36,353 bases of DNA from Candidatus Omnitrophota bacterium. GTDB lineage: Bacteria > Omnitrophota > Gorgyraeia > B26-G9. The first letter of the stretch is position 1. Each line of letters opens with the position of its first letter. Location of the stretch: the NCBI GenBank assembly GCA_018817165.1, contig JAHITY010000015.1:1-36353 (forward strand), read 5' to 3'. Position numbers and translations under genes: made by a program. The notes under the pieces were generated by a model. That model had not been told where the DNA came from. It worked only from the letters and a program-made list of their open reading frames with translations, and ran no database searches. Below, one piece after another: positions 1,345-36,353 of this stretch.

Positions 1345-2124
1345 CTATACGCTGCTTTTGAAGGCGCTTTCAATCCCCTTAAGAGTCAAAGTACTGTCAT
1401 AAACATCTATATTTTTGCAAAGCTTTTTCATTAAATATAAATGGCCGCCGGTAGCAATAACTTTGATCGGCTGCTTAAATTTAAGTTTAAAATCCTGTTT
1501 AAATTTATCAATCAATCCATCAATCAAACAAGCATAGCCATTAAACACCCCGCTTAGAATTGAATTATCCGTATCTCTTCCTAACAAAGCTTTGGGCATT
1601 TTAGCTGATAATTTTGGTAAAAGTGCAGTATGATGATGCAAAGAAAAAAGCGAAAGATTAATTCCAGGGATAATTACTCCCCCTAAATATTCCGCTTTAT
1701 CAGAAACAAGATCAATAGTTATTGCTGTGCCAAAATCAACCACCAAAGCCGGAAGAGAATAGTTTTCTTTAACCCCTAGCGCGTTTACCAATCTATCCAA
1801 GCCAACCTGCTCCGGAATTTTATATTTATTTTTAATTTTAATCCGCACCTCTTTGCCAATACAAAGAACTTTTGCTTTGGGAAAAATTTTGTTTAATTGT
1901 TTTTTTAAACCAGCTTGTGCTTTAGGCACCACTGAGCAAATCACAAAATTGTCGATTTTATCTGCTTTGGCTTTGATTTTTTTAAGATAAGCCGATAGCT
2001 CTTTTTTTAAAACCAATAAATCAGCGATTAATTCTGTCTTTATCCGTAATACCGCATAATTGTCTTTCTTTTTAGAAAAACCAAATACAGTACTGGTATT
2101 CCCAATATCAATATACACGTTCAT
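1345..2124 (-). CDS. coaX: Type III pantothenate kinase
   Basis: At 259 residues this is the normal size for CoaX, which phosphorylates pantothenate in the first step of coenzyme A synthesis. The N-terminal phosphate-binding motif DIGNTSTVFGF (residues 6-16) and the second motif VVDFGTAITID, followed by GGVIIPG, are those of the ASKHA-fold type III enzymes. The C-terminal IATGGH segment also fits. It starts 16 bases after the birA stop codon, so it is probably the last gene of pilT-uvrB-birA-coaX. Pairing of birA and coaX is common in bacteria (sometimes fused), which supports both calls. Confidence 0.95.
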   Translation of the reverse strand: MNVYIDIGNTSTVFGFSKKKDNYAVLRIKTELIADLLVLKKELSAYLKKIKAKADKIDNFVICSVVPKAQAGLKKQLNKIFPKAKVLCIGKEVRIKIKNKYKIPEQVGLDRLVNALGVKENYSLPALVVDFGTAITIDLVSDKAEYLGGVIIPGINLSLFSLHHHTALLPKLSAKMPKALLGRDTDNSILSGVFNGYACLIDGLIDKFKQDFKLKFKQPIKVIATGGHLYLMKKLCKNIDVYDSTLTLKGIESAFKSSV

Positions 2125-2140
2125 TACTCAGTCCCCTGTG

Positions 2141-3103
2141 TTAACTAATAACACTTACATCTCCGCTTAAAATATGATGCGAAAACCCAAAATCATCGCG
2201 CACAATTAAGGCCCCGCTATCATCAATATCCATTGCCTGTCCTTGAATCAGCTTACCGCGCCATTCGACTTTTATCCTTTTGCCCAAAGTCAGCGATAAG
2301 TCCCGCCAATCATTAATAATATCAGAAAAACTACCTTTAACAAGCTTATTATAATAAGTTTCAATTTCCCAAAGCATTGCCTGCAAAAAAGTGACTCTGT
2401 TTACTTTTTGTTTTGTTTCAATAAACAAAGATGTTGCCATATCCGGCAGGCTGCTCTTAGGAGTATTAATATTTATGCCAATACCCATGATAATAAAGTT
2501 TATCATATCCATTTCCGCGCTCATTTCTGTTAAAATACCGCAGACTTTAGCATCAGCAATATATACATCATTGGGCCATTTTATCTCCGCCTTGATCTTA
2601 GTTGTTTTTCTAATTGTTTTAGCCACAGCAACTGAACTCATCAAAGTTATTTTACCGGCTTCGGCCGGAGATATTTTAGGTTTTAAAATTAAAGACATAT
2701 ATATCCCGGAGCCTGGCGGTGAGACCCAATGCCGCCCCATCCGCCCTTTACCTTTTGTCTGTTTTTCGGCAACAATCAAGGCTCCTTCAGCTTCTGACTG
2801 TTCCGCTAAATTATAGGCAATAATATTGGTTGAATCCGCGGAATTATACGCGTAAATTTTTTTCCCTAAAACTTTAGTTTCCAATCCATAGCTAATTTCA
2901 TCCGGTAAAAGTTTATCCGGAACCCTATCCAGCGAATAACCAGTATGAGGGCTAGCTGATATTTCATAGCCACACGCTCTTAAATGGGTAATATGTTTCC
3001 AGATCGCGGTTCGCGAAACATTTAACTTACGCGAAAGCTCTTCACCGGAAATATAAGAATTTTTATTTTCTTTTAATAGTTTTATTATCTTTGCTTCGAT
3101 CAT
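2141..3103 (-). CDS. birA: BirA: biotin-protein ligase with N-terminal repressor domain
   Basis: This 320-residue protein has the bifunctional BirA layout. A winged helix-turn-helix occupies about residues 1-60 (SGEELSRKLNVSRTAIWKHI). The ligase core carries the biotin/ATP loop KGKGRMGRHW and the IKWPNDVYI motif, and an SH3-like C-terminal domain starts near GKRIKVEWRGK. It activates biotin as biotinyl-AMP and transfers it to carrier-protein lysines. The HTH suggests it also represses biotin genes, none of which are in this window. Its ATG lies inside uvrB, a 41-base overlap that implies translational coupling. No shorter start would keep the HTH intact. Confidence 0.96.
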   Translation of the reverse strand: MIEAKIIKLLKENKNSYISGEELSRKLNVSRTAIWKHITHLRACGYEISASPHTGYSLDRVPDKLLPDEISYGLETKVLGKKIYAYNSADSTNIIAYNLAEQSEAEGALIVAEKQTKGKGRMGRHWVSPPGSGIYMSLILKPKISPAEAGKITLMSSVAVAKTIRKTTKIKAEIKWPNDVYIADAKVCGILTEMSAEMDMINFIIMGIGININTPKSSLPDMATSLFIETKQKVNRVTFLQAMLWEIETYYNKLVKGSFSDIINDWRDLSLTLGKRIKVEWRGKLIQGQAMDIDDSGALIVRDDFGFSHHILSGDVSVIS

Positions 3104-5066
3104 TTGCCTTGGCCTTTAATTTCTCAATCTTATCTCTTAACATAATTGCTTTTTCAAATTGGAGATTTTTTACCGCAGTTTCCATCTGGCGTTCCAACAT
3201 ATCAATTTTGTCTAATCGTTCATAGGTCTTTATATTATCGCAAACTATTTCCCGAACAAATTCTTCCGCATTATCTTCATCTTCAATCCATTGATTAATT
3301 GCTTTAGTTATCGATTGCGGTTTAATCTTATTGATTTGATTATATTCTATCTGCTTATCTCTACGCCGTGAAGTCTCACTGATTGTTTTTTTAAGCGATT
3401 TGGTCATAATATTGGCATACATTATGACTTTACCATTTATATGCCTGGCGGCTCGACCGGCGACCTGGATCAAAGACGTTTCACTGCGCAAAAACCCTTC
3501 CTTATCCGCATCCATAACGCAAACCAAAGAAACCTCAGGCAAATCCAGTCCTTCTCTTAAAAGATTTACTCCGACCAGACAATCAAAATCTTTTTTCCTC
3601 AATTCATTTAATACTTTAACTCTTTCCATTGTATCTAACTCAGAATGAATATATTTCGTGGCAATCCCCGCCTGTTCCAGGTAAGCCGCCAGATCCTCAG
3701 CCATTTTTTTAGTCAGAGTTGTGACCAATACTCTTTCATGTTTTTTCGCGGTTGCTTTAACTTTTTCAATCAAATCATCAACTTGATGATCAGAAGAAAT
3801 CACCTCTATTCGCGGATCAACCAAACCAGTAGGCCGAATAATCTGTTCTACGATTTTATTACTTTTTTCCAATTCATAAGCTGATGGGGTTGCCGAGGCA
3901 AAAATCACCTGATCAATCAAAGATTCAAATTCGGCAAACTGCAAAGGCCGATTATCTAAACATGAAGGCAGCCGAAAACCATAATCAACTAAAACCTGTT
4001 TTCTGGCTTTATCACCATTATACATTCCTCTAATTTGCGGAATGCTTACATGCGATTCATCAATAATTGTTAAAAAATTCTGGGGAAAGTAGTCAATCAG
4101 ACAATACGGCCGACTTCCCTCTGGACGCTGACTCAAAAGCCGAGAATAATTTTCTACTCCGTGACAAAAACCAACTTCCCGCAGCATTTCCATATCATAT
4201 TTTGTCCTAGATTCCAAACGTTGCGCTTCAACAAGTTTTCCCTCAAGATTTAATTGAACAAGTCTTTGTTTTAATTCCTGTTCAATGCTTAACAATGAGC
4301 TCTCCAGCTGAGCATCCTCAACTAGAAAATGTTTTGCCGGATAAATCGCGATATCATCAACAACTTTTAGTTTATTCATTGAAACCGGATCAATTATCGA
4401 AATTTTTTCAATTTGATCACCGAAAAATTCCACGCGCACAGCTGATTGCTCATAAGCGGGAAATATCTCCACAGTGTCTCCGCGCACTCGAAATAATCCT
4501 TGGGTAAAGGCAATATCATTACGCTCATATCTGATTTTAATTAAATTTTTAAGCAATTCATCGCGCTGGATGTCCTGACCAGCTTTTAAATGCACAAACA
4601 TATTCTGATATTCATGAGGAGACCCTAAATTGTAAATACAGGAAACACTGGCAACCACAATCACATCATTTCTCGTCATCAGCGAAGTTGTCGCCGCAAG
4701 TCTCAAGCGATTAATCCGTTCATTAATTGCTGAATCTTTTTCGATATAAGTATCGGTTTGAGGGATATATGCTTCCGGCTGATAATAATCATAATAGCTG
4801 ATAAAAAACTCAACTGCATTGTGCGGGAAAAATTGTTTAAATTCAGAATAGAGCTGCGCTGCCAGGGTTTTATTATGGGAGACTATCAGCGTAGGGCGAT
4901 TAAGTGCGGCGATAACCGAAGCCATAGTAAAGGTCTTACCGCTGCCAGTTACGCCCAGCAAAGTTGTATATTTATCCTTATGCTTAACCGCATTAATCAG
5001 ATCAGCTATTGCCTGCGGCTGATCACCGGCCGGCTTAAAAGGACTGACTAATTCAAAAGCGCGCAT
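3063..5066 (-). CDS. uvrB: UvrB, excinuclease ABC subunit B
   Basis: A 667-residue protein of standard UvrB length. Walker A is GVTGSGKT (residues 38-45). The damage-probing beta-hairpin contains SYYDYYQPEAYIP, and the DESH box marks Walker B. The helicase motifs NLLREGLDLPEV and QVAGRAARH follow. The C-terminal UVR domain (LERQMETAVKNLQFEKAIMLRD) is the UvrC contact. UvrB verifies lesions delivered by UvrA and recruits UvrC for incision. The gene starts two bases after the pilT stop and overlaps birA by 41 bases. uvrA and uvrC are not here. Confidence 0.98.
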   Translation of the reverse strand: MRAFELVSPFKPAGDQPQAIADLINAVKHKDKYTTLLGVTGSGKTFTMASVIAALNRPTLIVSHNKTLAAQLYSEFKQFFPHNAVEFFISYYDYYQPEAYIPQTDTYIEKDSAINERINRLRLAATTSLMTRNDVIVVASVSCIYNLGSPHEYQNMFVHLKAGQDIQRDELLKNLIKIRYERNDIAFTQGLFRVRGDTVEIFPAYEQSAVRVEFFGDQIEKISIIDPVSMNKLKVVDDIAIYPAKHFLVEDAQLESSLLSIEQELKQRLVQLNLEGKLVEAQRLESRTKYDMEMLREVGFCHGVENYSRLLSQRPEGSRPYCLIDYFPQNFLTIIDESHVSIPQIRGMYNGDKARKQVLVDYGFRLPSCLDNRPLQFAEFESLIDQVIFASATPSAYELEKSNKIVEQIIRPTGLVDPRIEVISSDHQVDDLIEKVKATAKKHERVLVTTLTKKMAEDLAAYLEQAGIATKYIHSELDTMERVKVLNELRKKDFDCLVGVNLLREGLDLPEVSLVCVMDADKEGFLRSETSLIQVAGRAARHINGKVIMYANIMTKSLKKTISETSRRRDKQIEYNQINKIKPQSITKAINQWIEDEDNAEEFVREIVCDNIKTYERLDKIDMLERQMETAVKNLQFEKAIMLRDKIEKLKAKANDRSKDNKTIKRK

Positions 5067-5068
5067 TT

Positions 5069-6142
5069 TTAACGAAACGTCTTTCCTGTCTTCTGCAATA
5101 ATGTTTTAAAATGAGAAATGTCTTTGACCCTACTTAAAACAGTTTCATAACTAACCACACCCTTACAATATAAATCTTTTAAGGATGTATCCATTAGCTG
5201 CATTCCTAATTCAGCATTTGTCTGCATAATAGTCGGAATCTGCTCAGTTTTTCCTTCGCGAATAATATTTCGCAAAGCCGGACAAGCAACCAAGACTTCT
5301 GTTGCGGCAACCCGCCCCTTACCGTCAATCCGCGGGAGCAATTGCTGCGAAATAATTCCCTCAATCGCATTAGCTAAAACCATCCGAATTTGTTGTTGAG
5401 CATGCGGGGGGAAAACATCAATAATTCTATCGACAGTCTGGGTCGCGTCAGGAGTATGCAATGTTGCTAAAACTAAATGTCCGGTTTCCGCGGCAGTTAA
5501 AGCTGTTTGAATTGTTTCCAGATCGCGCATTTCACCAATGCAGATTACATCTGGATCCTGCCTTAAAGTATGAATAAGCGCACTACCAAAACTTCTAGTA
5601 TCAGAATAAACTTCTCTTTGAATAATTACACTTTTTTTGTGTTCATGAATATACTCAATCGGATCTTCAATAATAATTACTCGATCCGAACGATCTCGGT
5701 TAATAATATCAATCATTGAATTCATCGTTGTTGTTTTCCCAACACCAGTCGGCCCAGTTACCAGAACAAGTCCCGCGCGTTTACGGCAAAACTCTAACAC
5801 CACCGGCGGCAAGCCTAATTCTTCAGGAGTTCTGATTCTTAAGCCAACAACTCGAAAAGCAGCCTCAACACAATCTTTGGAGTTATAAATATTAACTCGA
5901 AAACGACTTATCCCAACCAAAGCAATTGAAAAATCTAATTCCCAGTCCTGCTCAAATTTCTCAATCTGAACTTGATTAAGAATACTGTAAATCATTTCTT
6001 TGGATTTTTCTCCGGTGAGAATATCCATTTCCATTGGTACAAGCTCTCCATCTATCCTTAGTGTAGGCGGAGAACCAACCACAATATGTAAATCAGAGGC
6101 ATTGCTTTCAACTGCTATTTCCAATAATTTTCTTAACTCCAT
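5069..6142 (-). CDS. pilT: PilT-type secretion/retraction ATPase
   Basis: At 357 residues this matches PilT, the hexameric ATPase that retracts type IV pili. Walker A is GPTGVGKT (residues 130-137), the Walker B/Asp box region is DPDVICIGEMRD (196-207), and the His box is GHLVLATLHT (221-230). ALRNIIREGK (289-298) corresponds to the AIRNLIRE segment that distinguishes PilT from assembly ATPases such as PilB. No other pilus gene is nearby; the context is DNA repair and cofactor genes. A PilU paralogue is possible, but the conserved retraction motif favours PilT. A 74-base gap separates it from nadC, so it may have its own promoter. Confidence 0.93.
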   Translation of the reverse strand: MELRKLLEIAVESNASDLHIVVGSPPTLRIDGELVPMEMDILTGEKSKEMIYSILNQVQIEKFEQDWELDFSIALVGISRFRVNIYNSKDCVEAAFRVVGLRIRTPEELGLPPVVLEFCRKRAGLVLVTGPTGVGKTTTMNSMIDIINRDRSDRVIIIEDPIEYIHEHKKSVIIQREVYSDTRSFGSALIHTLRQDPDVICIGEMRDLETIQTALTAAETGHLVLATLHTPDATQTVDRIIDVFPPHAQQQIRMVLANAIEGIISQQLLPRIDGKGRVAATEVLVACPALRNIIREGKTEQIPTIMQTNAELGMQLMDTSLKDLYCKGVVSYETVLSRVKDISHFKTLLQKTGKTFR

Positions 6143-6216
6143 AAAAATCCCCTTTGAATTTGCTCAATGATTTATCTGATATACATTAGATATTAATCTA
6201 CTTTATTATAAAAAAC

Positions 6217-7101
6217 TTATTTTGTTTTTAAACTAAAATCAATACATCGGAATGAATGGGTTAATGATCCCAAAGAAATAAAATCTACTCCGCAGGCAGC
6301 GATGCCAGCAATATTTTTTTCCGTAACATTACCCGATGCTTCAAGTAAAACCCGCTTATTGGTTTTATTTCTCAAACTCACTGCCTGTTTCATCTGGATA
6401 ATATTCATATTATCCAGCATAATAATATCCGGTTTACCCTGTATCGCGTCTTTAAATTCAGCCAAGCTGGTAACTTCAATCTCTAGCTTTACCTGTTTAG
6501 CGGTTTTTTTACGTACCTGTTTTATCATATCAGATAAATTAACATAACCAGAGACATCCCGCATAATCTGAATATGATTATCTTTGATCAATATCTGATC
6601 AAATAAACCAAAACGGTGATTGGCGCCCCCTCCGGTCTTAACAGCGTATTTCTCCAAAATCCGCAGACCAGGGGTTGTTTTTCTTGTATCCAAAACAATT
6701 GCTTTATATTTTTTTATTAATTGACTGATTTTCTGAGTTTTAGTCGCGATACCAGACAGCCTGCCGAGAAAATTTAGCGCTGTTCTTTCCCCTTTTAAAA
6801 TACTTATAGCCGGACCAATAATCGTGCAAATTGATTTCTCCGCTGTTAAATAGGCGCCTTCGGCAACATTGAACTTCACTTTTACTTTTTGATCAATCTG
6901 ACTGAATACTTCCTTAATCATCTCAAGACCGCAAACAACAATATTTTTTTCTTTTAAATAAATATCCGCCTGCATAATAACATCCTGAGCAATAACTGCC
7001 GCACAAGTAATATCGCCCGAACCAATATCCTCGGCCAAGGCATTGCTGACAATTATTGAAATATCGGATAAAACTTGTGTGTTTTTTTTACTTGAGCGCA
7101 C
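6217..7101 (-). CDS. nadC: Nicotinate-nucleotide pyrophosphorylase (quinolinate phosphoribosyltransferase)
   Basis: This 294-residue enzyme converts quinolinate and PRPP to nicotinate mononucleotide in de novo NAD synthesis. The family signature is clear: LDTRKTTPGLR, then KTGGGANHRFGLFD and the lysine-rich ILIKDNH motif. The C-terminal barrel includes IMLDNM and EASGNV. The start is a GTG at 7099-7101 lying inside the end of valS (14-base overlap) with only a weak ribosome binding site, which suggests coupling to valS translation. nadA and nadB are not in the window. Confidence 0.96.
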   Translation of the reverse strand: MRSSKKNTQVLSDISIIVSNALAEDIGSGDITCAAVIAQDVIMQADIYLKEKNIVVCGLEMIKEVFSQIDQKVKVKFNVAEGAYLTAEKSICTIIGPAISILKGERTALNFLGRLSGIATKTQKISQLIKKYKAIVLDTRKTTPGLRILEKYAVKTGGGANHRFGLFDQILIKDNHIQIMRDVSGYVNLSDMIKQVRKKTAKQVKLEIEVTSLAEFKDAIQGKPDIIMLDNMNIIQMKQAVSLRNKTNKRVLLEASGNVTEKNIAGIAACGVDFISLGSLTHSFRCIDFSLKTK

Positions 7102-9796
7102 TTTTAATTTTCTCTAATTTGTCTATTTCCTGCTTTAATTCCAATAAACTCTGTTTTTCCTTTTCCACAATAGCTACTGGTGCTTTTTTTACATAATTCT
7201 CATTTGAAAGAAGTTTATCTTTACGGATTATATGTTGATTTAATTCTTTTATCTGAGCTTCGATTTTCTGTGTTTCTTTTTCTGGATCAAAAGTCTCGTC
7301 TAATTTTAACTTCATAACAATTACACAGCCAGCAGCTGTACTGGATGGATTAACCGACACTTTAAAGCTACTTTTATCAGCAAAATGCAAATTTTCGACC
7401 TTAGACATATTAAGCAGATAATTTAAATTTTTCTCTAAAATATTTAATACTGATTTATCCTCAGGATAAAGTTCTATGTCAACTTTATCTTTTGGTTTAA
7501 TATTATTTTCACTACGAAGATTTCTTATGCTAACACAATTATCCATTACCAGCTGCATTTCTTTTTCAATATCCAAATCAATATAATCTTCATTAATCTC
7601 TGGCCAAGGCTGTGACATAATTGCTGTATCATTACCCGTAACCTTTTGCCAAATCTCATCGCTGATAAGTGGCATAAATGGATGCATTAACCGCAAACTC
7701 ATCTCCAAAACATTATAAAGTACAATTTTTGTATCCTTGTTTTCAATGTTTAATTTTGAAAGTTCAATATACCAATCACAAAGCTGATGCCAGAAAAACT
7801 CATAAATAATATTCACTGCTTCATTAAGCCGGTACTTAGACAATGACTGATTCAGCTTCTTTAAAGTAAGATTAAAACGGCTAAGTATCCATGCGTCAGC
7901 TAAATTAAGATCGTTCTTTAATGGTAATTTTTCTTTTGATACATCAACACCATCAAAGTTCATTAAAATAAAACGCGATGCATTCCATATCTTATTGCAA
8001 AAATTTCTCCCAAATTCAAACTTCTCCTTGGAAAGATATACATCTTGGCCCATTGAAGTAATTGAGATTAAGCTAAAACGCAGGGCATCGGTACCATACT
8101 CTGCGATAATTTCAAGAGGATCAATACTATTCCCCAAAGATTTTGACATTTTCTTACCAGTATCGTCGCGCACTGTTCCATGCAAATAAACGTCCTTAAA
8201 TGGAATATCTCCGATGAATTCAAACCCAGCCATAATCATCCGGGCTACCCAAAAAAAGATAATCTCAGGGGCTGTTACTAAAACATCTGTTGGATAAAAA
8301 TAGTCAAGCTCCTGCTTTGCTATCTTCTGTTTTTCATCTTCTATTTTCTGTTTTCCGTCTTCTGCCTTCTGATTAAAAGGCCAGCCAAAAGTTGCGAAAG
8401 GCCATAACCAGCTTGAAAACCAGGTATCCAGAACATCAGGATCCTGAACTAAATCAGTTGCTCCACAATGCCTGCATTTATCTGGTTTAATCCGCGAAAC
8501 AATAACACCCTTTTTATAGTCATCTTCATCTTGACAAGCAGCACAATAGTAAACTGGAATCCTATGCCCCCACCATATTTGACGAGAAATACACCAATCC
8601 TGGATATTATCCATCCAATTCAAATAAACTTTAGTCCAGCGCTCAGGATGAAATTTAATTTCTCCTGTTCGTACTGCTTCAGTTGCCGGGATAGCAAGCG
8701 GCTTCATACTTACAAACCACTGTTTAGAATAATATGGCTCAATAACTGTATCACATCGATAACAATGCCCTACCGCATGAGCATGCGAATCAATTTTAAC
8801 CAAAAGGCCTTGTTGTTTTAAATCTTCAATTACAGCCTTACGCGCCGCAAATCGGTCAAGGCCATTATATTTACCAGCATTCGCGTTACAAACCCCATCA
8901 GGATGCAATATATTAATAAACTCAAGATTATGTCTTTTTCCCATGCCATAGTCATTAGGATCATGAGCGGGAGTAACCTTAACCGCGCCAGTTCCAAATG
9001 CTGGATCAACAAAATCATCCGCAATGATTTTAATTTCTCTCTGGATTAATGGCAAAATTACAATTTTTCCGATAAGATCTTTATAACGCTTATCATTTGG
9101 ATGAACCGCAACAGCAGTATCACCAAGCATTGTCTCCGGTCTTGTTGTTGCCACTACAAGAAACTCTGCGGAATCCTTAATCGGATATTTTATATGATAT
9201 AAATGGCCATCCATATCTTGATGCGGAGCTTCTTCATCTGAAAGCGCGGTTTGACAACGCGGACACCAATTAATTATTCGATTACCTCGATAAATAAGTC
9301 CTTTATCATATAATCTAATGAAAACTTCAAGAACAGCATCACTATAACCTTCATCCATAGTGAATCTTGTTCTCTGCCAATCACAAGCACAAGCAAGGCT
9401 GCGCAATTGTTTAATTATTGTTGATCCATATTCTTGTTTCCAATCCCAAACATGTTCAAGAAACTTTTCCCGTCCAACATCATCACGCGTAAGCTTTTCC
9501 TTGGCAAGTTTTCGCTCCACCACATTCTGAGTAGCAATACCAGCATGATCAGTTCCCGGCATCCAGAGAGTTTCAAACCCGGCCATTTTTTTATAGCGAA
9601 TTAAAATATCCTGTACAGTATTATTTAAAGCATGCCCCATATGTAGAATCCCCGTAACATTCGGCGGCGGAATTACAATCGAAAAAGGTTTTTTCGTAGA
9701 ATTGATTTTTCCATGAAATAAATCATTTTTTTCACAATGCAGATATTGCTTTTCTTCAATATCTTTAAAATTATATTTTTTGGCAAGCTCTTCCAT
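7088..9796 (-). CDS. valS: Valyl-tRNA synthetase
   Basis: A 902-residue class I synthetase. The HIGH motif appears as HMGH (residues 52-55), and the editing (CP1) domain carries TTRPETMLGDTAVAV. KKMSKSLGNS is the KMSKS loop. A C-terminal coiled-coil arm of about 60 residues (from DPEKETQKIEAQI) is characteristic of ValRS. CxxC pairs (CPRC, CYRC, CAAC, CRHC) suggest zinc knuckles. An odd Lys/Glu/Gln-rich insertion of three 7-residue units lies at residues 476-496, between the conserved WPFATFGWP and YFYPTDVLVT segments. The gene starts three bases after cimA and overlaps nadC. Confidence 0.97.
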   Translation of the reverse strand: MEELAKKYNFKDIEEKQYLHCEKNDLFHGKINSTKKPFSIVIPPPNVTGILHMGHALNNTVQDILIRYKKMAGFETLWMPGTDHAGIATQNVVERKLAKEKLTRDDVGREKFLEHVWDWKQEYGSTIIKQLRSLACACDWQRTRFTMDEGYSDAVLEVFIRLYDKGLIYRGNRIINWCPRCQTALSDEEAPHQDMDGHLYHIKYPIKDSAEFLVVATTRPETMLGDTAVAVHPNDKRYKDLIGKIVILPLIQREIKIIADDFVDPAFGTGAVKVTPAHDPNDYGMGKRHNLEFINILHPDGVCNANAGKYNGLDRFAARKAVIEDLKQQGLLVKIDSHAHAVGHCYRCDTVIEPYYSKQWFVSMKPLAIPATEAVRTGEIKFHPERWTKVYLNWMDNIQDWCISRQIWWGHRIPVYYCAACQDEDDYKKGVIVSRIKPDKCRHCGATDLVQDPDVLDTWFSSWLWPFATFGWPFNQKAEDGKQKIEDEKQKIAKQELDYFYPTDVLVTAPEIIFFWVARMIMAGFEFIGDIPFKDVYLHGTVRDDTGKKMSKSLGNSIDPLEIIAEYGTDALRFSLISITSMGQDVYLSKEKFEFGRNFCNKIWNASRFILMNFDGVDVSKEKLPLKNDLNLADAWILSRFNLTLKKLNQSLSKYRLNEAVNIIYEFFWHQLCDWYIELSKLNIENKDTKIVLYNVLEMSLRLMHPFMPLISDEIWQKVTGNDTAIMSQPWPEINEDYIDLDIEKEMQLVMDNCVSIRNLRSENNIKPKDKVDIELYPEDKSVLNILEKNLNYLLNMSKVENLHFADKSSFKVSVNPSSTAAGCVIVMKLKLDETFDPEKETQKIEAQIKELNQHIIRKDKLLSNENYVKKAPVAIVEKEKQSLLELKQEIDKLEKIKSALK
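8309..8371 (-). repeat. In-frame 3 x 21-bp degenerate repeat inside valS
   Basis: Read on the minus strand, three 21-base units each begin with CAGAA or a close variant and encode QKAEDGK, QKIEDEK and QKIAKQE. They insert 21 charged residues (476-496) at a point where ValRS proteins normally pass almost directly from the WPF-x-x-x-GWP segment to YFYPT. The reading frame is kept. The CAGAA/GAAAACAG wording resembles the TTCTGTTTTCTGTTCTCTG words in the spacer near 17520-17545. Confidence 0.75.
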
Positions 9797-25666: not shown

Positions 25667-28501
25667 TTAAGGACATAAACTCTTAAACTGACAATATTTG
25701 CATGAATCCTCTGAATTATCCGCCTCAAAAGGTTTATCCAGATCATATATTTCATCAATAATATAAGCCAACATATCCAAGCAACATTGCATTATCTGGT
25801 CTTTTTCCGCATATTCCTTTAGCTTAGGAAATTCATCGATGTTTAAAGTTCTGATATTATAAAGTGCTGCAGTAATAAAAGTATCCGCATAATCCTGCTC
25901 GACACAATATAAATATAAAGGCAATTGAAAAGATTTAAGCGTTTTTTTTATTGCTTTGCGATCAGGATTTTCTAAAACTTTTTCCAGAGTTTTTAAACCG
26001 GCTGGCAAAGAATCGCTATTACCGGTTTTATAATCAATAATCAGCAGCCGGCCTTTTTCCAAACAATCAATCCGGTCAATCCGGCATTTAAAAGAAATAC
26101 TCCTCTGCTTATTCCGATTCAATTTAATTATTTTTTTAATATCAGTTTCCAGTCCTTCAATCCTTTGAATTTGCCTTTGCTGTTCATTTTCCAGAAACTT
26201 TTCCAATCTAAACCGCATGATTTGTTCGATCATAAAAGCATCTGATTTCATCCGATGCTTAAATTCATGTTCAAAGCGCTTGTCAAATTCATTAAAAAAA
26301 AAATTTTTAAACTCTAGATCAATATTCGGTGACTTAGATAAAAATGGTAAAAACATATCTTCCAATAATTTATGAATAAAAGTCCCTACCTCTTTACTTT
26401 CCAGTTCATCAAGCAAATCTTCTTTTTCACTTAAACCTAAAATATATTTATAATAAAATTGCAAAGGACATTTCAAATAAAGATTCAAACTCGATGCGGA
26501 AAAAGTAAAATTATCCAATAGCTCTTGTATATTGGTATTCTTTTTAGCCATCCCTTTTTTATGAATAATTTCACAATTAAAAGCCGCTCTCGGAACATTA
26601 TCATTATTTAGCTTTTTATTTGCTTTCTCCTGTTCCCAAATTATTTCCTCAATAAAACGACTCCGCTGTTTATCGGCACTGTCATTATAAACCAAATGAA
26701 CATTTTTCGCTGATTTAATCAGTCGCATAAACTGATAGCGCTGAATACACTCTTCTTCTTCCAATCTGTCCAGTCCCAGACTGATCAAGATCGCTCTGGG
26801 CACAAGCGGTTCATTAGTACTGAGTTTAGGCAAAACTGATTCATTAACATCCATTACTATAACGTTTTCAAAACTTAAAGCGCGGGTTTCTAAAAAACCA
26901 AGGATTTGCAGACCTTTTAAAGGAGCTCCCGAAAAAGCTATCTTTTCTTTTCTAAGGAAACCATCGAAAATTTTAAATATTTCCAGAACTGCAAAAGGCT
27001 CAGTACTTATTGCTTTATTTTTAAATTGCTCACTCAAACTGAGCATTTTCTCGATCATTTTTAAGTTCAGCGGATACATCGCTATTGCGCTTTTTGAAAC
27101 TAGTAAATCAATAAACCCCTCTAAAACACGCGCAAAATCACCTAAAGTATTAATTTTTTCCCATAGCAAAAAAACCTGTTTATGTAAATAATTTAATACA
27201 CATTTCACCTGTTCATTACTCACAATAATCGACATACTTTTAAGCTGTTCGCTTACATTCACATGCAATTCAATCATCTCAACCAAATCCGACAAACCGA
27301 TAAACAAACTGCCTCCTAGCTCAGACTCATATCCGCCGGAGAGAACTTCTTCAATCTTATGCACTAGGACCCGGGTAATAGCAGAATCCGTATCAATTAG
27401 CATATTCTTGATTAAAGGATGCATGATCAAGGCAAGATAATCCTTGGCATAATATTGATCTCTTTTTCTAGTTTTTTGTGCTCGATTGATTCTGTCAAAT
27501 AAATTATAAAGCGTGCTGCGTCTTAAAGGGTATCCCATTGAGACATTAAATTGATTACTGACAGAAGATATTTCCGATAATAGCGGAATAAGGCTATCTT
27601 CTTGCGGCAGAACAATCACGGTATTTTCCGGATTAGCTATTTTCTTTAATATTTCCCTGATAATTCCCACCTGAGAGTGCGCGTCAAAACCAGCGTATAA
27701 CCTCAGATTATCAGGCTGATCATCAAGTTTAACTTTTGGCTTTATTTCAGCTTTAAAAAAAGCCGCTAATTCTTCAAACTGCGCCCACGGCTTATTATCT
27801 TTCTGAAAAAATATCGCGGCTTTATCTTTGTCATAATATTCCTTAATAACCAGTTTTTCCGTATTGTGCAGCTCGAAAAAATTGCAAAATAAGATCTTAT
27901 CAAATTCGTCCAGCCCCGTTTTTCGACAATTCTCAGCCGCACTCAGATAAACAAGTCCGCGCGAGTATTTATTATCTTTTTTCATTTTTAAATGATAAAG
28001 CTCCCGCAGAGTAACAATATTTTCCAATAATTTATTAAAAACCGGAGGAACTTCATATCCGATTTCTGCGTTCTCCTCAATATTAAGCAAGCGCTGCATT
28101 GAGATATCCTCTAAATCTAGTTGATCGATAAATAAAACGATTTCTCTTGCCCAGGGCATAAACTGAGAAAAACTTTGATAAGTTTTTAGGACCTCAGGAA
28201 CTTTTGTTTTTGCCAGAGAATAAATCGTAAAACATGCTTCAATTTCTGAAATAGTGCTGAATTTATTATTTTTAGAAACAATATACTTCATAAATTCATT
28301 AATTGAAAAAAAACTGGGAGGGATAAAACTATTTTTATAAATTTCCGCTAATTCTTTTTTTAAAAATAATGCCGGTCTTTTACCGCCAAAAACTATCGCT
28401 GTCCGACTCAAATCATTAGCGAGATTAAAATCAGCTTTTAAATAAATTGCCAATTCTTTAATGAAATTTTCCTTAAAATGAAATGTTTTTATTTTCTGCA
28501 T
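25667..28501 (-). CDS. AddB-like subunit: PD-(D/E)XK nuclease with helicase-like N-terminus
   Basis: A 944-residue protein likely to partner the AddA-like protein in processing double-strand DNA ends. The C-terminal nuclease contains RIDRIDCLEKG, IIDYKTGN and QLPLYLY. Four cysteines, C678 (LKCPLQFYY) and C934, C937 and C943 (CKYCQFKSLC), match the iron-sulfur staple of AddB nucleases. The N-terminal region is helicase-like, but no intact Walker A is seen: the equivalent segment is FGGKRPALFLKKEL, as in the Bacteroidetes-type AddB proteins I know. It lies downstream of addA and the lipoprotein gene. Chi recognition cannot be judged from sequence. Confidence 0.85.
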   Translation of the reverse strand: MQKIKTFHFKENFIKELAIYLKADFNLANDLSRTAIVFGGKRPALFLKKELAEIYKNSFIPPSFFSINEFMKYIVSKNNKFSTISEIEACFTIYSLAKTKVPEVLKTYQSFSQFMPWAREIVLFIDQLDLEDISMQRLLNIEENAEIGYEVPPVFNKLLENIVTLRELYHLKMKKDNKYSRGLVYLSAAENCRKTGLDEFDKILFCNFFELHNTEKLVIKEYYDKDKAAIFFQKDNKPWAQFEELAAFFKAEIKPKVKLDDQPDNLRLYAGFDAHSQVGIIREILKKIANPENTVIVLPQEDSLIPLLSEISSVSNQFNVSMGYPLRRSTLYNLFDRINRAQKTRKRDQYYAKDYLALIMHPLIKNMLIDTDSAITRVLVHKIEEVLSGGYESELGGSLFIGLSDLVEMIELHVNVSEQLKSMSIIVSNEQVKCVLNYLHKQVFLLWEKINTLGDFARVLEGFIDLLVSKSAIAMYPLNLKMIEKMLSLSEQFKNKAISTEPFAVLEIFKIFDGFLRKEKIAFSGAPLKGLQILGFLETRALSFENVIVMDVNESVLPKLSTNEPLVPRAILISLGLDRLEEEECIQRYQFMRLIKSAKNVHLVYNDSADKQRSRFIEEIIWEQEKANKKLNNDNVPRAAFNCEIIHKKGMAKKNTNIQELLDNFTFSASSLNLYLKCPLQFYYKYILGLSEKEDLLDELESKEVGTFIHKLLEDMFLPFLSKSPNIDLEFKNFFFNEFDKRFEHEFKHRMKSDAFMIEQIMRFRLEKFLENEQQRQIQRIEGLETDIKKIIKLNRNKQRSISFKCRIDRIDCLEKGRLLIIDYKTGNSDSLPAGLKTLEKVLENPDRKAIKKTLKSFQLPLYLYCVEQDYADTFITAALYNIRTLNIDEFPKLKEYAEKDQIMQCCLDMLAYIIDEIYDLDKPFEADNSEDSCKYCQFKSLCP

Positions 28502-29067: not shown

Positions 29068-32000
29068 TTAAACCATTTCTGCTTTAGCTTGATCAAAATA
29101 GATCAAATACGCCCTGATTTTTTTATCGTGATAAATTGAGTTCAAAATATTTTTATAGACAGAAATTTGGGCAATATACTCCTCTTTATTATCCGCCGAA
29201 CTCTTATAGTCAATTATCATTACTTCGTCTTTACTGATGATCAGTCGGTCAATACGTTTAGTTAAGCCAAATTTATCGACAAACTCTTTTTCCTGATAGA
29301 CCTGATCATCCCTGCACAGATAAAAAAACGGCTTCAATTCTTCAGAACTAATCATCTGGTTGATTTTTTTTATATATCTAGCCTTATTCTCGATATCGGG
29401 ATTTTCCTGTTCGAATTCATTTTTAATTTTAGCAATAACTTCTTTTAGATTTTTCCCGCTTAGATTCCCTATTTTACTAAGCAGTGAATGTAAAACTTTG
29501 CCCTGTTTAATATTTTCTCGGTTATTAAGCGGAGCTATTTCCGTGAATTCCTCTTTCAATAAAGATATCCAATTCTGATATACAGGCAAAGATATCGGCA
29601 TATTGCTATGATCAGATTGAGGCGCTACTGCTTTCATATTTAGCTGTGAACCTTGACAGATTAATCCCTCGGGAATAAGAAAAAACGCTGTATTATTTGA
29701 TTTTGCTGTTTTGGAACTACTATAAGGAATAAAGATATACAGTTCATTTTGCGCGCGGGTAAATGTCACATAAATAACATTCAACTCATCAATAAAAGCT
29801 TTAACATACTCCTGCCTGTAAATTTCTCCAATCTTTTTAGAGAATCTCGCATATTTCGTATCCAGTCTTAAAAGACCAAAAGATTCCTCAAGATCAAGTT
29901 CATTCTCATAAACAACATATGGAGAGTTTGCTCCTTTTATCTTTACATTCATTTCCAGAAAAGGCACAATAACAACCGGAAACCCCAGCCCTTTTGCTTT
30001 ATGAATAGTCATCACTTTTACAGCATTATCATCAGAAAAATTAACATACAAATGCGAATCCGGAGCCGTTTCTAGATAGCTAAGAAATAAACCTATATCA
30101 AGATTATCCTCTTCCTGTTCTTTAATTAATTCAAGAAAACGCATGAAAAACCCCTGATATTGAGGAAAGTTTTCAAAAATTTTAAATTTATCAATAATAC
30201 TGATAAGCAATTCATATAAAGAAACAAAACCAACACTTTTAAAAAATTCCGCAATATTTTCTTGCCATATCAAAGAATATTTTTTTCTAAACATTCTATA
30301 CATATATCCGCAATTAATTCCCTGTTGTTTAGCTTTGCGGTTATATTGAAAGATAAAATCAGCTATCTCTGCTTGAGTTAGACTAGTGGCTTTTAAAAAA
30401 ATGTCTCCCAGGATAAACGCGGAAAATTCAATTGTATCAATCGGCGAATTTAAAAACCGCAAAAAAGCGATCAGCTCCGAAATAAGCGAATTATTCAATA
30501 TATTCAACGTGCGTTCTGATTCAACATTTATTTTTTTTTCAGACAGCCATCCAGTAACTAACTCTATTTCTCGATTGCTTCGACATAAAACAGCAATTGA
30601 TTTTAAGTCAAAACGTTTTTGGATAGTGTCCATTGTTTCAATTAAACGCTGTTTGATTAACTCATCCCGCTCGTCGCTATTTTGATATTCAATATAATCA
30701 ACTTTCACATAGCCATCAGGCTTATGCGGAACATCGAATTGTTCGGAATCCCTAAATACGCTTAAGATTTGATCAACTTCTTCAGTTAATAACTGTCGGA
30801 GCGGCTCTTTTTCACTATCCTGCTGATCTTCTAAAAAACGTCTTAAATTATCAAATGAAAATACTCGATTATTAAACAGGATAATCTGTTTTTGCGATCT
30901 ATAGTTTGTTTTTAAAACAAGCTTATCATTAACATTAAAATGTTCAAACTCTTTTTTTATGCTATCAAATAGATCAACATTACCTCCTCTAAATCGATAA
31001 ATTGCCTGTTTCCGATCTCCCACATAAAAAAGCGATCCGCCACTAGATAAAGCATCCTCAACCATCACAAATAAATTTTTCCACTGCAATTTACTGGTAT
31101 CTTGAAATTCATCAATTAAAAAATGCTTAAACCTGCTGGCTAATCGATAATAAAGCTCAGGGACACTCATATGAGCCTCTTTAAACAGAAAATAAGCTTG
31201 TTTGTTTAACTCTTCCATAAACACCAGATCGTCACGCATCGCATAGTTACGAAAATGCTTATAAACATCATCAAATATATCAATATAGCAATTAAATAAA
31301 GATAGTGCCTCTTTTTCACTTAACTCAACAATACTTTGCCTGAACTCTTGCCAAATCAACTCCAATTCCTCAGGAGCAAAAAAACCTTTGTTCATTGGCA
31401 AAGTATCAGACATAAATGATTTCTTATCCAGATCGGCAATATTAAAACCGTATTTGTTCTTCTTGATAAAATTAGCTAAAGTTGTATCGGCAAAACGCTT
31501 ATTAATTCCCTCAGGCTTCTTGTCATATATTTGATTAAGTATCGCGAGAATCCTTTGCTTTAAACCAATTAAATCATTATCAGCCATTTGAAATTTTTTA
31601 AACTTTCCTCCATAAATATTACTTTGTCTGAACATACCGCTAATAATATTTAATATGTCTTTTTTCGGCAGCCAACTTGTGCGATTTTCCAGAAAAATAT
31701 ACTGACGAATAAAATCCTGAAAAACTTTTGCCGCCTTTTCATCTTCACAAACATGATCTATGCATTCATCAAGCGCATAAGCTACATAGGCTGAATAATT
31801 TTCTTTTATCTGAAAGTTAGCGGATAGATTCAATTCGGAAGCGCAACCGGATAATATAAGATTGATAAACTTATCCACGTTTTTTACTTGGAAGTAATTA
31901 TAATTTAAAATAATACAATCAAGTACTTTAAACGCCTGCTGACTTGCTTTTTCTGGCGAAAGCCCCAAAGAGTTAATTAAATTATTTTTCTCCACCGGAT

Positions 32001-32253
32001 TAATAAAAGCATCTAAAGCAATTTTTTTTAGCTGTTCTAAAATTCGTTCCCGCATTTCTCTTGTAGCCTTTAGCGTAAAAGTAATTGCCAGGATATTGCG
32101 CAGAGGTATTTGCCCCTGATCAAAATTATGATTGATTAGCAGCTGAATATAACGCTTTGACAGCTCATAGGTTTTCCCTGAACCAGCGGAGGCTTCAACA
32201 ATTTTCACCTCATGAAAATTTAAATTTGGATTTGTATTCTGTCCTGGACTCAT
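29068..32253 (-). CDS. AddA/RecB-like UvrD-family helicase-nuclease
   Basis: A 1061-residue superfamily 1A helicase with a C-terminal nuclease. Motif I is ASAGSGKT (residues 21-28), motif Ia AITFTLKATREM, motif II FLIDEFQDTS, motif III GDRKQAIYRFRGG, motif IV TNYRSQ, motif V VMTIHKAKGLGFP and motif VI YVTFTRAQNELY. The PD-(D/E)XK end contains RIDRLI and MIIDYKSS, then AQISVYKNIL. The single nuclease domain and a second nuclease encoded just downstream fit AddAB better than RecBCD; no recC or recD is present. It would resect broken DNA ends before RecA loading. Confidence 0.9.
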   Translation of the reverse strand: MSPGQNTNPNLNFHEVKIVEASAGSGKTYELSKRYIQLLINHNFDQGQIPLRNILAITFTLKATREMRERILEQLKKIALDAFINPVEKNNLINSLGLSPEKASQQAFKVLDCIILNYNYFQVKNVDKFINLILSGCASELNLSANFQIKENYSAYVAYALDECIDHVCEDEKAAKVFQDFIRQYIFLENRTSWLPKKDILNIISGMFRQSNIYGGKFKKFQMADNDLIGLKQRILAILNQIYDKKPEGINKRFADTTLANFIKKNKYGFNIADLDKKSFMSDTLPMNKGFFAPEELELIWQEFRQSIVELSEKEALSLFNCYIDIFDDVYKHFRNYAMRDDLVFMEELNKQAYFLFKEAHMSVPELYYRLASRFKHFLIDEFQDTSKLQWKNLFVMVEDALSSGGSLFYVGDRKQAIYRFRGGNVDLFDSIKKEFEHFNVNDKLVLKTNYRSQKQIILFNNRVFSFDNLRRFLEDQQDSEKEPLRQLLTEEVDQILSVFRDSEQFDVPHKPDGYVKVDYIEYQNSDERDELIKQRLIETMDTIQKRFDLKSIAVLCRSNREIELVTGWLSEKKINVESERTLNILNNSLISELIAFLRFLNSPIDTIEFSAFILGDIFLKATSLTQAEIADFIFQYNRKAKQQGINCGYMYRMFRKKYSLIWQENIAEFFKSVGFVSLYELLISIIDKFKIFENFPQYQGFFMRFLELIKEQEEDNLDIGLFLSYLETAPDSHLYVNFSDDNAVKVMTIHKAKGLGFPVVIVPFLEMNVKIKGANSPYVVYENELDLEESFGLLRLDTKYARFSKKIGEIYRQEYVKAFIDELNVIYVTFTRAQNELYIFIPYSSSKTAKSNNTAFFLIPEGLICQGSQLNMKAVAPQSDHSNMPISLPVYQNWISLLKEEFTEIAPLNNRENIKQGKVLHSLLSKIGNLSGKNLKEVIAKIKNEFEQENPDIENKARYIKKINQMISSEELKPFFYLCRDDQVYQEKEFVDKFGLTKRIDRLIISKDEVMIIDYKSSADNKEEYIAQISVYKNILNSIYHDKKIRAYLIYFDQAKAEMV

Positions 32254-32472: not shown

Positions 32473-35400
32473 TTACTTAGGCAAATTAGGGACTTGTTCA
32501 AAGCCCTTCCAATCATAATCATAGGTCTTCTTTTTCTTTGGTTTAAATAATAGAGGAATATCAGTAAATAATAAGTATATACTCGGTACAATAAAAAGCG
32601 TCAAGATCGTAGAAACTGACAAACCGCCTAAAACCGTAATAGCCAATGGCGCCCATAATCCCGCACCTTCGGTTCGATCCAAAGCCATCGGCAGCAATCC
32701 AAACAAAGTCGTAAAAGAAGTCATCATAATCGGTCTTAAACGATCCATGCCCGCCATCATAGCAGCTCTAAAGCGGTTTACCTTCCGATTGCGGGTAAAA
32801 TAATTAATCCTGTCTATCAGAATAATCGCATTATTCACCACAATCCCTGCCAGCATTATAACCCCGATAAAAACAGAGACGCTTTTCGGTTTTTTAAAAA
32901 TTAAAAGCGCTAATGTTACACCAATTAAAGATAATGGCACACTCGATAAAATAACTAAAGGCTGCACATACGAAGCAAACAAAGCCGCTAAAACCATGTA
33001 TATTAAAGCAAGCGTAACCCAAAGAACAAAAACAAGCTCACTTTTCCCTTTAATCATTTTTTCATAATCGCCTCCGAAGCGGTAATAATAGTTCTTAGGC
33101 AATTTCATTTCTTTAAAATCTTCTTTGATTATCTCTACAGATTTAGCAAGATCATACTTACTCATTGTCGCGCTTACTTCAATCATTCTTTGCTTATTTT
33201 TACGCCAAATTTCAGTCGGTCCCTCTCCGGGTTTAAAATTAGCTACCTGCTCGAAAAAAACTATATTCCCATCATCACCAACAATGCTAAGTTTGTGAAC
33301 ATCATCAAATGTTTGCCTATCTTCTTTTCTTAATCTGGCAATAGTTTCAACTTGTTTTGACTCAGAATGGAAACGGGTGGCCACCAAACCACGCATTTTA
33401 GCGTGGACAGTATCAGATATTTTAGACACAGTAAGTCCCCATTTTGCTGCTTTTGCTTTATCAACAACAGCTAGAAGTTCCGGACGTTTTTCCCTCATTC
33501 TAATTTTTACATCAACAAAACCAGGAATCTGACCGATCCTTTTTGAGATGTTTACAGCAATTTCCCTTAAAGTGTTATAATCATATCCATAAATTTCAAT
33601 ATGCAGCTCTTTAGCAGCCATGCTTTGCGGTTCTTCAAAATAAATAAACGCATTAGGGATTTCCTTTACTTTCTCCCGAAGATCATCAATTACTTCTTTA
33701 TTTGATCTTTCTCTTTGAGACAGAGCAACAAGCTTTACAAAAATCCGATTGGACCATGGTTTAATCCGGCTGGAAACTGTTTTAACCTCCGACACGCTAG
33801 CAAGAATCTTCTCCACCTCAGCAACAACCTGATCGGAAATTTCAAGCTTAGCTCCAGTTGGCAGCTCAATAAAAATTGTAAATTCATTTTCTTCAGTTTT
33901 TCCGAGAAATTCCATGCCTATTTTTTCGGAAAACACAAAAAATGCTATTCCAAACAAACAAAACACAGCGACAACCAGATATAATCTAAATCTTAGAGCT
34001 CGCCCAAGTCCTTTACGATAAGCCGTTTGCAATACTTGAAGAAATTTATTGATTTTTAATTTTTCTTTCTTCTCTTTTTTGGAAACCTCAGAAAGCCACT
34101 GTTTTTGTTTTTCTTCTATTTCTTTTTCTCTTTGTGTTTTGCGTTGCCCCATAGCTGTGGCTAAAACAGGGACTAAAGTTACCGATACAAAAAGACTGGC
34201 TAACAAAGCATAAACAATTGTCATCGCCAGGCCTTCATACATAAGTCTAATTTCTTTGTTTACAAAAATAAACGGGAGAAAAACAATGATTGTGGTTAAA
34301 GTAGAAGCAAAAATAGCCAGCCACATTTCTTCAGCACCAACGATCGATGACTCTTTGCGATCCAAGCCCATAGCTCTTTTTTTGGAAATATTATCCAAAA
34401 CAACAATAGCATTATCCACAAGCATTCCACTGCCCAGAGCCAAACCGCTTAAAGTCATAATATTAAGCGTTAAATTCTGAAAGAACATCATAATAAAAGT
34501 GCAGATAATTGCGGTAGGAATAGCAATCCCCACTGTAAATGTAGAACCAATATCGCGCAGGAATATCCATAATACACAAATTGCCAAAAATCCACCAAAG
34601 ACCAAAGAACTTTGCACATCTTTTATTGCTTTACTGATAAAATCTCCCTGATTATAAACTGGGATTAATCTAATCCCGCGTTCTCCCAGGTTTTCATCTT
34701 TTTTAAATGATTCCAGCTCTTTTATAATTGAAGCAGTCATCTTTAAAGTATTAGCCATGCTTTCTTTTTGCACATAAATAGAAACAGTCGGGGCTAAATT
34801 TGTCCGAGCATAACTTGTAGCCTCCATGAAAGAGTCCTTAACATTAGCCAGCTCCTTCAAGCGAATTATTACTCCTGTTTGGGAAGCGGCAATACCAATA
34901 TTTTCAATCGTCTTAACGTCAGTAAATTCACCGATTATTCTGATTAAAAATTTATCCGATGCCTGCTCTATATCACCGGCTAATAAGTTTAGATTGTTCG
35001 AGCCAAGAACATTGATAACTTTATTAATCGGCATATTATATGCGTCTAATTTTGCTTGATCAATTTCTACAAGGATTTTTCTTTCTCTTCGCCCCCCGAC
35101 TTCAACATCCGCGACCCCGTTTATCCGTTCAAGTCTTGTTTTTAAACTTTCATCAACAATCTTTCCCAACATCTCCGGAGTATAGCGTTTGCCTCCAGTC
35201 ATGGCCAAAATCATAACCGGCACATCAGAATATTCATATTTAGCAATAACTGGTTTTTCGATTTCCTCAGGAAGGTCATTTTTAACCCGGGCAAATTTCT
35301 CTCTGACTTCCAAGGCAGCAAAATCCATATTCGTACCTGGCTCAAACTTAATAACAATAGTCGCACTAGCTTCTTCTGAAGTGGATTCAACACTCCGAAT

Positions 35401-35631
35401 ATGGCTAACAGTAGAAACTGCTTCTTCAACTATCCGAGTAATTCTTTCTTCAATTTCTACAGGAGGAATCCCCCCCCGAACATTAATAAATATAGTAACA
35501 TTACCAAAACTAGTATTAGGCATTAGTTCAATCGGAAGCTTGGTCAGAGATACCCAACCCAAGATTAAAGCAGCTACGAAAATCATGGATATTGTTACCG
35601 GTCGATTTACAGAGTAGCGGGGAAGACTCAT
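32473..35631 (-). CDS. RND superfamily efflux transporter (AcrB/MdtBC type)
   Basis: A complete 1052-residue RND pump subunit of standard size with 12 predicted membrane helices and two large periplasmic loops. TM1 follows SVNRPVTISMIF. The TM4 region reads GSGMLVDNAIVVLDN, where the usual proton-relay Asp-Asp is Asp-Asn, a variant seen in many HAE1-type pumps. The second half repeats the pattern with AGIVVNNAIILIDR and PIMMTSFTTLFGLLPMAL. Substrates cannot be predicted: both multidrug and metal pumps share this plan, but no metal motif is obvious. It starts six bases after the upstream RND gene, suggesting a paired MdtB-MdtC-like heteromer. A charged insert near QRKTQREKEIEEKQKQW sits at the cytoplasmic loop before TM7. 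Confidence 0.93.
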   Translation of the reverse strand: MSLPRYSVNRPVTISMIFVAALILGWVSLTKLPIELMPNTSFGNVTIFINVRGGIPPVEIEERITRIVEEAVSTVSHIRSVESTSEEASATIVIKFEPGTNMDFAALEVREKFARVKNDLPEEIEKPVIAKYEYSDVPVMILAMTGGKRYTPEMLGKIVDESLKTRLERINGVADVEVGGRRERKILVEIDQAKLDAYNMPINKVINVLGSNNLNLLAGDIEQASDKFLIRIIGEFTDVKTIENIGIAASQTGVIIRLKELANVKDSFMEATSYARTNLAPTVSIYVQKESMANTLKMTASIIKELESFKKDENLGERGIRLIPVYNQGDFISKAIKDVQSSLVFGGFLAICVLWIFLRDIGSTFTVGIAIPTAIICTFIMMFFQNLTLNIMTLSGLALGSGMLVDNAIVVLDNISKKRAMGLDRKESSIVGAEEMWLAIFASTLTTIIVFLPFIFVNKEIRLMYEGLAMTIVYALLASLFVSVTLVPVLATAMGQRKTQREKEIEEKQKQWLSEVSKKEKKEKLKINKFLQVLQTAYRKGLGRALRFRLYLVVAVFCLFGIAFFVFSEKIGMEFLGKTEENEFTIFIELPTGAKLEISDQVVAEVEKILASVSEVKTVSSRIKPWSNRIFVKLVALSQRERSNKEVIDDLREKVKEIPNAFIYFEEPQSMAAKELHIEIYGYDYNTLREIAVNISKRIGQIPGFVDVKIRMREKRPELLAVVDKAKAAKWGLTVSKISDTVHAKMRGLVATRFHSESKQVETIARLRKEDRQTFDDVHKLSIVGDDGNIVFFEQVANFKPGEGPTEIWRKNKQRMIEVSATMSKYDLAKSVEIIKEDFKEMKLPKNYYYRFGGDYEKMIKGKSELVFVLWVTLALIYMVLAALFASYVQPLVILSSVPLSLIGVTLALLIFKKPKSVSVFIGVIMLAGIVVNNAIILIDRINYFTRNRKVNRFRAAMMAGMDRLRPIMMTSFTTLFGLLPMALDRTEGAGLWAPLAITVLGGLSVSTILTLFIVPSIYLLFTDIPLLFKPKKKKTYDYDWKGFEQVPNLPK

Positions 35632-35637
35632 TCTCGG

Positions 35638-36353
35638 CTAATTCTCCTCTTTCAATCTATATACCTTATGCGGACCTTCACCGGAAGAAATTAATATATG
35701 CATGTCAACTAATTCAGCTAATTCTTTATCCGCAACAGGTAAAGTAACTCTAAACTTAACAACATATTCTAATCGAGTAATTTTTCCCGCAGATAAAATA
35801 AAATCAACTAATTGCTGCTGGCGAATAGTGAGCTTGTTCGGTTCTGAAATAGGTTCCAGATCTGGCGATGCCTGATCTAAGGATTCAAGATCTGGCGATT
35901 CAGGATCTTGCGATGCATCATTTAATTTATTATCAGAAAAATCTATGCCCTCTGAATATTTAGGATCCCCAGGATAATTATCAGTTGTTACCAGGTGATC
36001 ATCCGCAAAATTATTTTTAGATCCTGCCAAATGACTCAGGTCAATTTCTTCAATCTTTATTTTTGTAGGTTTAACAATCAGCTGTTCTTCATCATCTTCC
36101 TTGCCAAACTTAAAGCTTAAATTAAACCATTCTTTTATAGTTTCCAATAAGATATAAATACTCGGGACAATAAACAATGTCAAAAAAGCCGCTGTGGTTA
36201 ACCCCCCCATTACAGTCCTTGCCATAGGCGCTCTTAATTCAGATCCCTCGCCCAGCGCAAAAGCCAAAGGCATTAAACCAAAAATTGTAGTAAGTGAAGT
36301 CATTAATATCGGACGAGCTCTGACTTTACTGGACTGAATCGCGGCTTCAAATA
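35638..36353 (-). CDS. RND transporter C-terminal part with acidic linker and winged-helix-like tail (5' truncated by window edge)
   Basis: The gene enters from the right edge; 237 residues are visible. The first 77 are the end of an RND pump: SKVRARPILMTSLTTIFGLMPLA, then VMGGLTTAAFLTLFIVPSIYILLE, which is TM11-TM12. Instead of stopping soon after TM12, the frame continues for about 160 residues: an acidic, low-complexity linker of about 96 residues, then a 64-residue tail (35641-35832). The tail has the wHTH pattern: a helix LTIRQQQLVDFIL, GKITRLEYVVKF, a putative recognition helix around VADKELAELVDMHIL, and a wing SSGEGPHKVYRL. No stop or frameshift separates them. It runs into the next RND gene, likely one operon. 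Confidence 0.88.
   Translation of the reverse strand, partial: FEAAIQSSKVRARPILMTSLTTIFGLMPLAFALGEGSELRAPMARTVMGGLTTAAFLTLFIVPSIYILLETIKEWFNLSFKFGKEDDEEQLIVKPTKIKIEEIDLSHLAGSKNNFADDHLVTTDNYPGDPKYSEGIDFSDNKLNDASQDPESPDLESLDQASPDLEPISEPNKLTIRQQQLVDFILSAGKITRLEYVVKFRVTLPVADKELAELVDMHILISSGEGPHKVYRLKEEN
35858..35917 (-). repeat. Two 30-bp repeats in the acidic linker of the RND tail
   Basis: AGATCTGGCGAT occurs at 35858-35869 and again at 35888-35899, exactly 30 bases apart, each followed by related wording. On the minus strand they encode 10-residue units containing SPDLE. This looks like recent tandem duplication in a flexible linker and may vary between strains. Confidence 0.75.

Follow-up and report, generated by a model that had tools for sequence, protein, structure and literature searches.

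We describe a tripartite efflux system from Candidatus Omnitrophota in which one of two tandem RND permeases ends in a winged-helix domain, joined to the pump by a long acidic linker. The pump class is already known; what is new here is an RND efflux pump of two-permease layout that carries a winged-helix tail, and no description of an RND-winged helix fusion was found in the searchable open literature. The fusion is old and has been inherited across many Omnitrophota families. We propose, with confidence evenly divided, that the tail is a tethered regulatory domain on an MdtBC-like two-subunit pump, DNA-reading by origin and, in the family from which our sequence comes (f1), most likely serving in protein docking or regulation.

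The window, the whole stretch of 36,353 nucleotides that was analyzed, covers positions 1-36353 of contig C37 in a 3.08 Mb metagenome-assembled genome. On its minus strand the frame of the first permease, RND1, is open from a stop codon at 35638-35640 to the right edge, and 35638..36353 holds the 3′ part of the gene, which matches Pfam ACR_tran; the rest lies outside the window. Completed with neighboring DNA (C37:35638-39321, minus strand), RND1 encodes 1,227 aa and matches ACR_tran over residues 4-1058 (E=8e-228, 759 bits against a cut-off of 28). RND2, the second permease of the tandem pair, starts 6 bases past the RND1 stop (32473..35631, minus strand), encodes 1,052 aa without a tail, and scores 755 bits against the same cut-off (1e-226); both are RND permeases by full-length ACR_tran matches above the gathering score. 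The last 237 codons of RND1 (P0001) divide, all on the minus strand, into the end of the pump domain with the last transmembrane helix, TM12 (residues 1-76, 36124..36351; ACR_tran match at 2-69, modeled helix at 41-81), a linker (77-173, 35833..36123) and a 64-residue tail (174-237, 35641..35832). The linker, of about 97 residues, contains 27% D+E and has a net charge of -16. The original prediction of an uninterrupted frame running from TM12 through an acidic linker into a 64-residue module is borne out by this layout. From RND topology the tail is expected to lie on the cytoplasmic side of the membrane.

Modeling gives the tail a winged-helix fold. AlphaFold2, applied to five tails (that of the window and those of loci L008-L011), returned helix-helix-helix-strand-strand at a pLDDT of 90.8, a confident model with three helices ahead of a wing of two strands; when the last 237 residues were modeled together, the tail reached about 85 and the linker, predicted to be disordered, about 30-45. 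The wing, two strands around GEGPHK (35653..35694, minus strand), appears in both models, and the third, or recognition, helix, PVADKELAELVDM, occupies 35704..35742 on the same strand. Nearly all Foldseek matches of the tail in the PDB are winged-helix proteins (TM 0.63-0.83), including MarR, ArsR, LexA, FeoC (4awx), DsrD, Z-alpha and Fic tails; no E-value fell below 0.001 (best 0.005), as one would expect of such a small fold. A fold first assigned by eye, with structure prediction named as the check, is confirmed by these two methods.

Profile comparisons place the tail among known C-terminal modules. A profile built from 20 tails picks out a Fic protein (PDB 8cil, E=2.5e-4) at its C-terminal winged helix. 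The window tail reached neither gathering score among the Pfam HTH models HTH_DeoR and HTH_24, which tails of relatives pass with 39.5 bits against 21 and 36.7 bits against 21.9. Of the five relatives' tails compared in this way, entries 1 and 4 are relied on, since entries 2 and 5 had a few changed residues at the start. Pfam FeoC (PF09012) did not match the window tail, and one relative stayed below the cut-off with 12.7 bits against 21. By these profiles the module is akin to the DeoR type and homologous to the winged helices at the C-termini of Fic (8cil), AlbA_2/Schlafen-like and DUF4062-type proteins. The tail and the Fic-type domain share an L-N-x-R-Q start, an I-T-x-x-E-Y motif, the recognition helix, the wing and a Y-x-L end. 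The Fic-type winged helix, however, ends soluble proteins, whereas that of RND1 ends a 12-helix transporter.

The pump itself resembles MdtABC and MuxABC in having adjacent homologous permeases encoded in one operon with an MFP and an outer-membrane channel. In f1 the gene order is TolC-like, MFP, RND1 with tail, RND2 and then an AddA-like helicase. Unlike MdtABC and MuxABC, RND1 has about 170 residues beyond its last membrane helix, with the winged helix at their end. NCBIfam cut-offs for the MdtB, MdtC, AcrB and RND_permease subfamilies were not reached; RND1 scored 373 bits against the MdtC model (cut-off 1774) and 342 bits against the MdtB model (cut-off 1584). Since the MdtB and MdtC equivalog cut-offs were not attained, we regard this as a pump laid out like MdtBC and not as an MdtBC. 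The MdtB2C1 heterotrimer is a precedent for a two-permease complex (PMC7015380), and by analogy only RND1 and RND2 might assemble as a B2C heterotrimer. Directly downstream of the operon, also on the minus strand, the window encodes an AddB/AddA-like helicase-nuclease pair (25667-28501 and 29068-32253), and an AddA-like gene comes after RND2 in several f1 genomes.

The tails differ in charge. In other families the tails, thirty of which were compared, are basic, averaging a net charge of +6.5 and a pI of 10.0, and their recognition helix is of the PTAARDLKEL type. Ten f1 tails, in contrast, are neutral, averaging +0.7 and pI 7.3, and their recognition helix follows the pattern P-[VI]-A-D-[KR]-E-L, with a mean net charge of -2.9. 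For the window tail the net charge is about +1, and its acidic recognition helix, PVADKELAELVD, carries -3 against mostly 0 to +2 in relatives, the helix mean of other families being approximate because an automatic cut missed the third helix in five rows. An earlier suggestion was that the module could touch DNA. For the clade as a whole these properties leave DNA binding plausible, as most relatives' tails are basic and some pass HTH_DeoR or HTH_24. For the window copy it is doubtful, given the neutral tail, the acidic helix and the missing Pfam HTH match, and docking to a protein is at least as likely there as contact with DNA.

A rival reading, which we hold to be possible but would adopt only tentatively, makes the pump a transporter-sensor: the tethered winged helix would bind the operon promoter or other DNA, and this binding would change as the pump went through its conformational cycle, much as in CadC or ToxR with the pump in the place of the sensor domain. 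The fold argues for it, as does the DeoR-like recognition helix of relatives. RND1 shares with the ToxR family and CadC a cytoplasmic-side winged helix joined to a membrane protein by a disordered linker, and in full-length CadC a 50-residue disordered linker allows contact with DNA from the membrane (PMC5936718). ToxR-family proteins, however, are bitopic, with an N-terminal winged helix and a periplasmic sensor, whereas the winged helix of RND1 is C-terminal and its DNA binding putative. The control region of the operon also speaks for such a regulator. At the head of the f1 operon lies a near-consensus promoter with partial conservation of its spacer, TTGACWTAACC...ACAATATAAT; six f1 genomes have one exact copy each, always at the RND operon. 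A leader, GCAAARGGAATTGC, lies 5 bases before the TolC start codon, around the Shine-Dalgarno sequence, at the operon in 8 of 12 f1 genomes, with one extra copy elsewhere in G324; promoter and leader of the TolC-like gene are at G000:C37:42766-42848 (L088 ~7167-7249), outside the window. As the two elements are almost confined to this operon, the operon seems to be controlled in its own way. The unusually conserved promoter would fit an operator for some DNA-binding protein; the leader could serve as an operator or in translation, the second role being suggested by its fixed distance and its position around the Shine-Dalgarno sequence. In addition, no regulator gene was recognized within the f1 operon or directly upstream of it. 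Against this reading stand the neutral f1 tail with its acidic recognition helix and lack of a Pfam HTH match, the fact that no operator has been linked to the tail, and the presence in families f4, f18 and f48 of a regulator of the ROK family upstream despite the tail. The broader version, in which RND1 is the transcription factor of its own operon throughout the phylum and its transport or assembly state sets promoter binding, we judge rather unlikely.

Many RND-pair operons of Omnitrophota are immediately preceded by the gene of a ROK-family regulator whose N-terminus forms a winged helix (L246 272-1462, L247 13556-14749, L254 2041-3291, L257 2030-3319) and which is likely their local regulator. 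It lies directly upstream of TolC at tail-less RND pairs in f2 and f11, and the same gene precedes the tailed pairs of f4, f18 and f48; in f1, f6, f9, f17, f23, f40 and f42 the tail is present and no ROK gene was recognized in the stretch read. We considered the tail as a stand-in for a separate local regulator and rejected this as a general rule, as the three families f4, f18 and f48 have both.

It is also conceivable, at a much lower level of probability, that a protease cuts off the tail on a signal and frees it as a soluble regulator. The long disordered linker would suit a protease, and its length, 21 to 510 residues, varies freely among tailed RND1 proteins. However, none of the genes recognized in the operon encodes a dedicated protease, and the linker is too variable to show a common cleavage motif. 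From its sequence behavior we take the linker to be a spacer whose length is free to vary.

Substitution patterns set the tail apart from this spacer. By the Nei-Gojobori method, dN/dS in six genome pairs is 0.08-0.22 for the tail, 0.18-0.59 for the linker (one pair saturated) and 0.05-0.11 for the pump; in the nearest pair, the window and its congener, the values are 0.09, 0.38 and 0.05. The f1 version of the tail is constrained like those of other families. As far as substitution rates can tell, the tail is a functional protein domain under purifying selection. That it is a passive relic without function could be argued from the failure of the window tail to pass any Pfam HTH model, but the dN/dS values in all six pairs contradict this, no loss is seen among the 40 tailed rows of the tree described below, and we consider the idea very improbable.

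The fusion is widespread in the phylum. We searched 384 Omnitrophota genomes with tail profiles, counting a fusion where an RND profile matched the same open frame, and verified it in 53; four further genomes have a tail fragment at a contig edge with an RND gene after it. Tails are also conserved at 48-88% identity in four independent public MAGs; related genomes, whose retention of the fusion was named as a check, do keep it. Within f1 it is present in nine of ten sampled genomes. Loss within the family was rejected, as the tenth genome (G276) is cut by a contig end inside RND1. An error of sequencing or assembly that joined an unrelated downstream gene to the pump, conceivable in a metagenome-assembled genome, is refuted by the recurrence of the fusion in these 53 genomes and four MAGs, by the G276 gap being a contig end, and by the low dN/dS of the tail, and its probability is negligible.

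Outside the phylum we sampled about 620 genomes at E<=1e-10: 145 from the L034 phylum (Verrucomicrobia), 119 each from those of L052 (Planctomycetota) and L012 (Acidobacteria), and 118 each from Desulfobacteraceae (L018) and the L017 phylum. No RND frame with the tail was found in the 118-145 genomes from each of these five phyla, which are samples that leave absence elsewhere unproven; the winged helix is present there in proteins other than RND, and five large frames that were opened (962-1,962 aa) were none of them RND. About 76 RND loci of other phyla likewise gave no match to the tail profile, in keeping with the earlier remark that the cytoplasmic tail of RND pumps is short. Lower-scoring tail matches were mostly frames of about 350-500 aa; those opened, in Omnitrophota and other phyla, looked AlbA_2-like and DUF4062-like, as judged by eye from sequence. 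Several individual loci deserve mention. The extreme case is L161 (G206:C7), where a minus-strand frame at 1862-6838 encodes 1,659 aa and a linker of about 510 residues, itself with a net charge of -109, separates the pump from the winged helix. L120 (G221:C138:32687-32878) is a coiled-coil type protein, not RND, with the same basic winged helix at its end (about 100 bits). Large GAF-sensor-like proteins with the same winged-helix type occur at L192, L193, L205, L208 and L209, in the phylum sampled around L052, and are possible soluble counterparts.

In a maximum-likelihood tree of 112 RND proteins all 40 tailed ones fall on one side of a single branch (support 87), with no loss of the tail among them. 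The tailed clade adjoins a clade of eight tail-less RND1 proteins (support 99), and the RND2 proteins, including that of the window, form a separate clade of 44. Since one branch separates tailed from tail-less RND1, the tail changed state once in this sample, through either gain in the tailed clade or loss in the tail-less one. Orthologous tail-less pairs occur in f2, f8, f10, f11 and f16, with RND1 proteins 47-52% identical to that of the window. In nearly all fetched loci that show the neighborhood, the tail-less RND gene comes after the tailed one; exceptions are L161, where no second RND gene was seen downstream, and L175, where an extra gene lies between the two.

Computation establishes the fusion, its fold, age and constraint; function we infer. 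In the reading that we favor, docking by a former DNA-reading domain, RND1 and RND2 would be the two inner-membrane subunits of a tripartite system with the TolC-like protein and MFP encoded in the same operon, forming a complex by analogy with MdtBC. The winged helix would have been recruited a single time, at an early stage of Omnitrophota, its source being the domain family found at the end of Fic and AlbA_2/Schlafen-like proteins. The ancestral tail was probably a DNA-reading domain and in most families still looks like one, so that in those families the pump might serve as a regulator tethered to the membrane. In f1 the DNA-reading surface appears to have been neutralized and the domain kept by strong purifying selection, and because that tail is neutralized yet constrained we read it as a DNA-reading domain turned to another use, most simply docking. 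The putative partner on the cytoplasmic side might be a regulator, RND2, or a protease or stability factor, and its docking would set the level or activity of the pump. A precedent is FeoC, whose winged helix attaches to FeoB and protects it against FtsH (PMC5519574). Both are small winged helices tied to a transporter, and FeoC acts on the transporter protein itself through FeoB stability; FeoC, however, is a separate protein, in some cases with an Fe-S cluster, whereas the RND1 tail is fused and its window copy has no cysteines. The two share a fold match (4awx), with no close sequence relation shown. Against docking, no partner has been found, a neutral charge does not keep winged helices from binding DNA, and the operon promoter is unusually conserved.

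Few transporters have been studied as closely as RND pumps, whose control, as far as is known, lies with separate regulators. A winged helix that is part of the permease itself, and that has persisted while much of a phylum radiated, would give transport and control a direct physical link. The natural variation among tails, on or off and basic or neutral, offers a testable system for comparing transporters as sensors with winged helices that serve protein stability, as in FeoC. The age of the fusion and the selection on it suggest a pump that informs the control machinery of the cell or takes direction from it.
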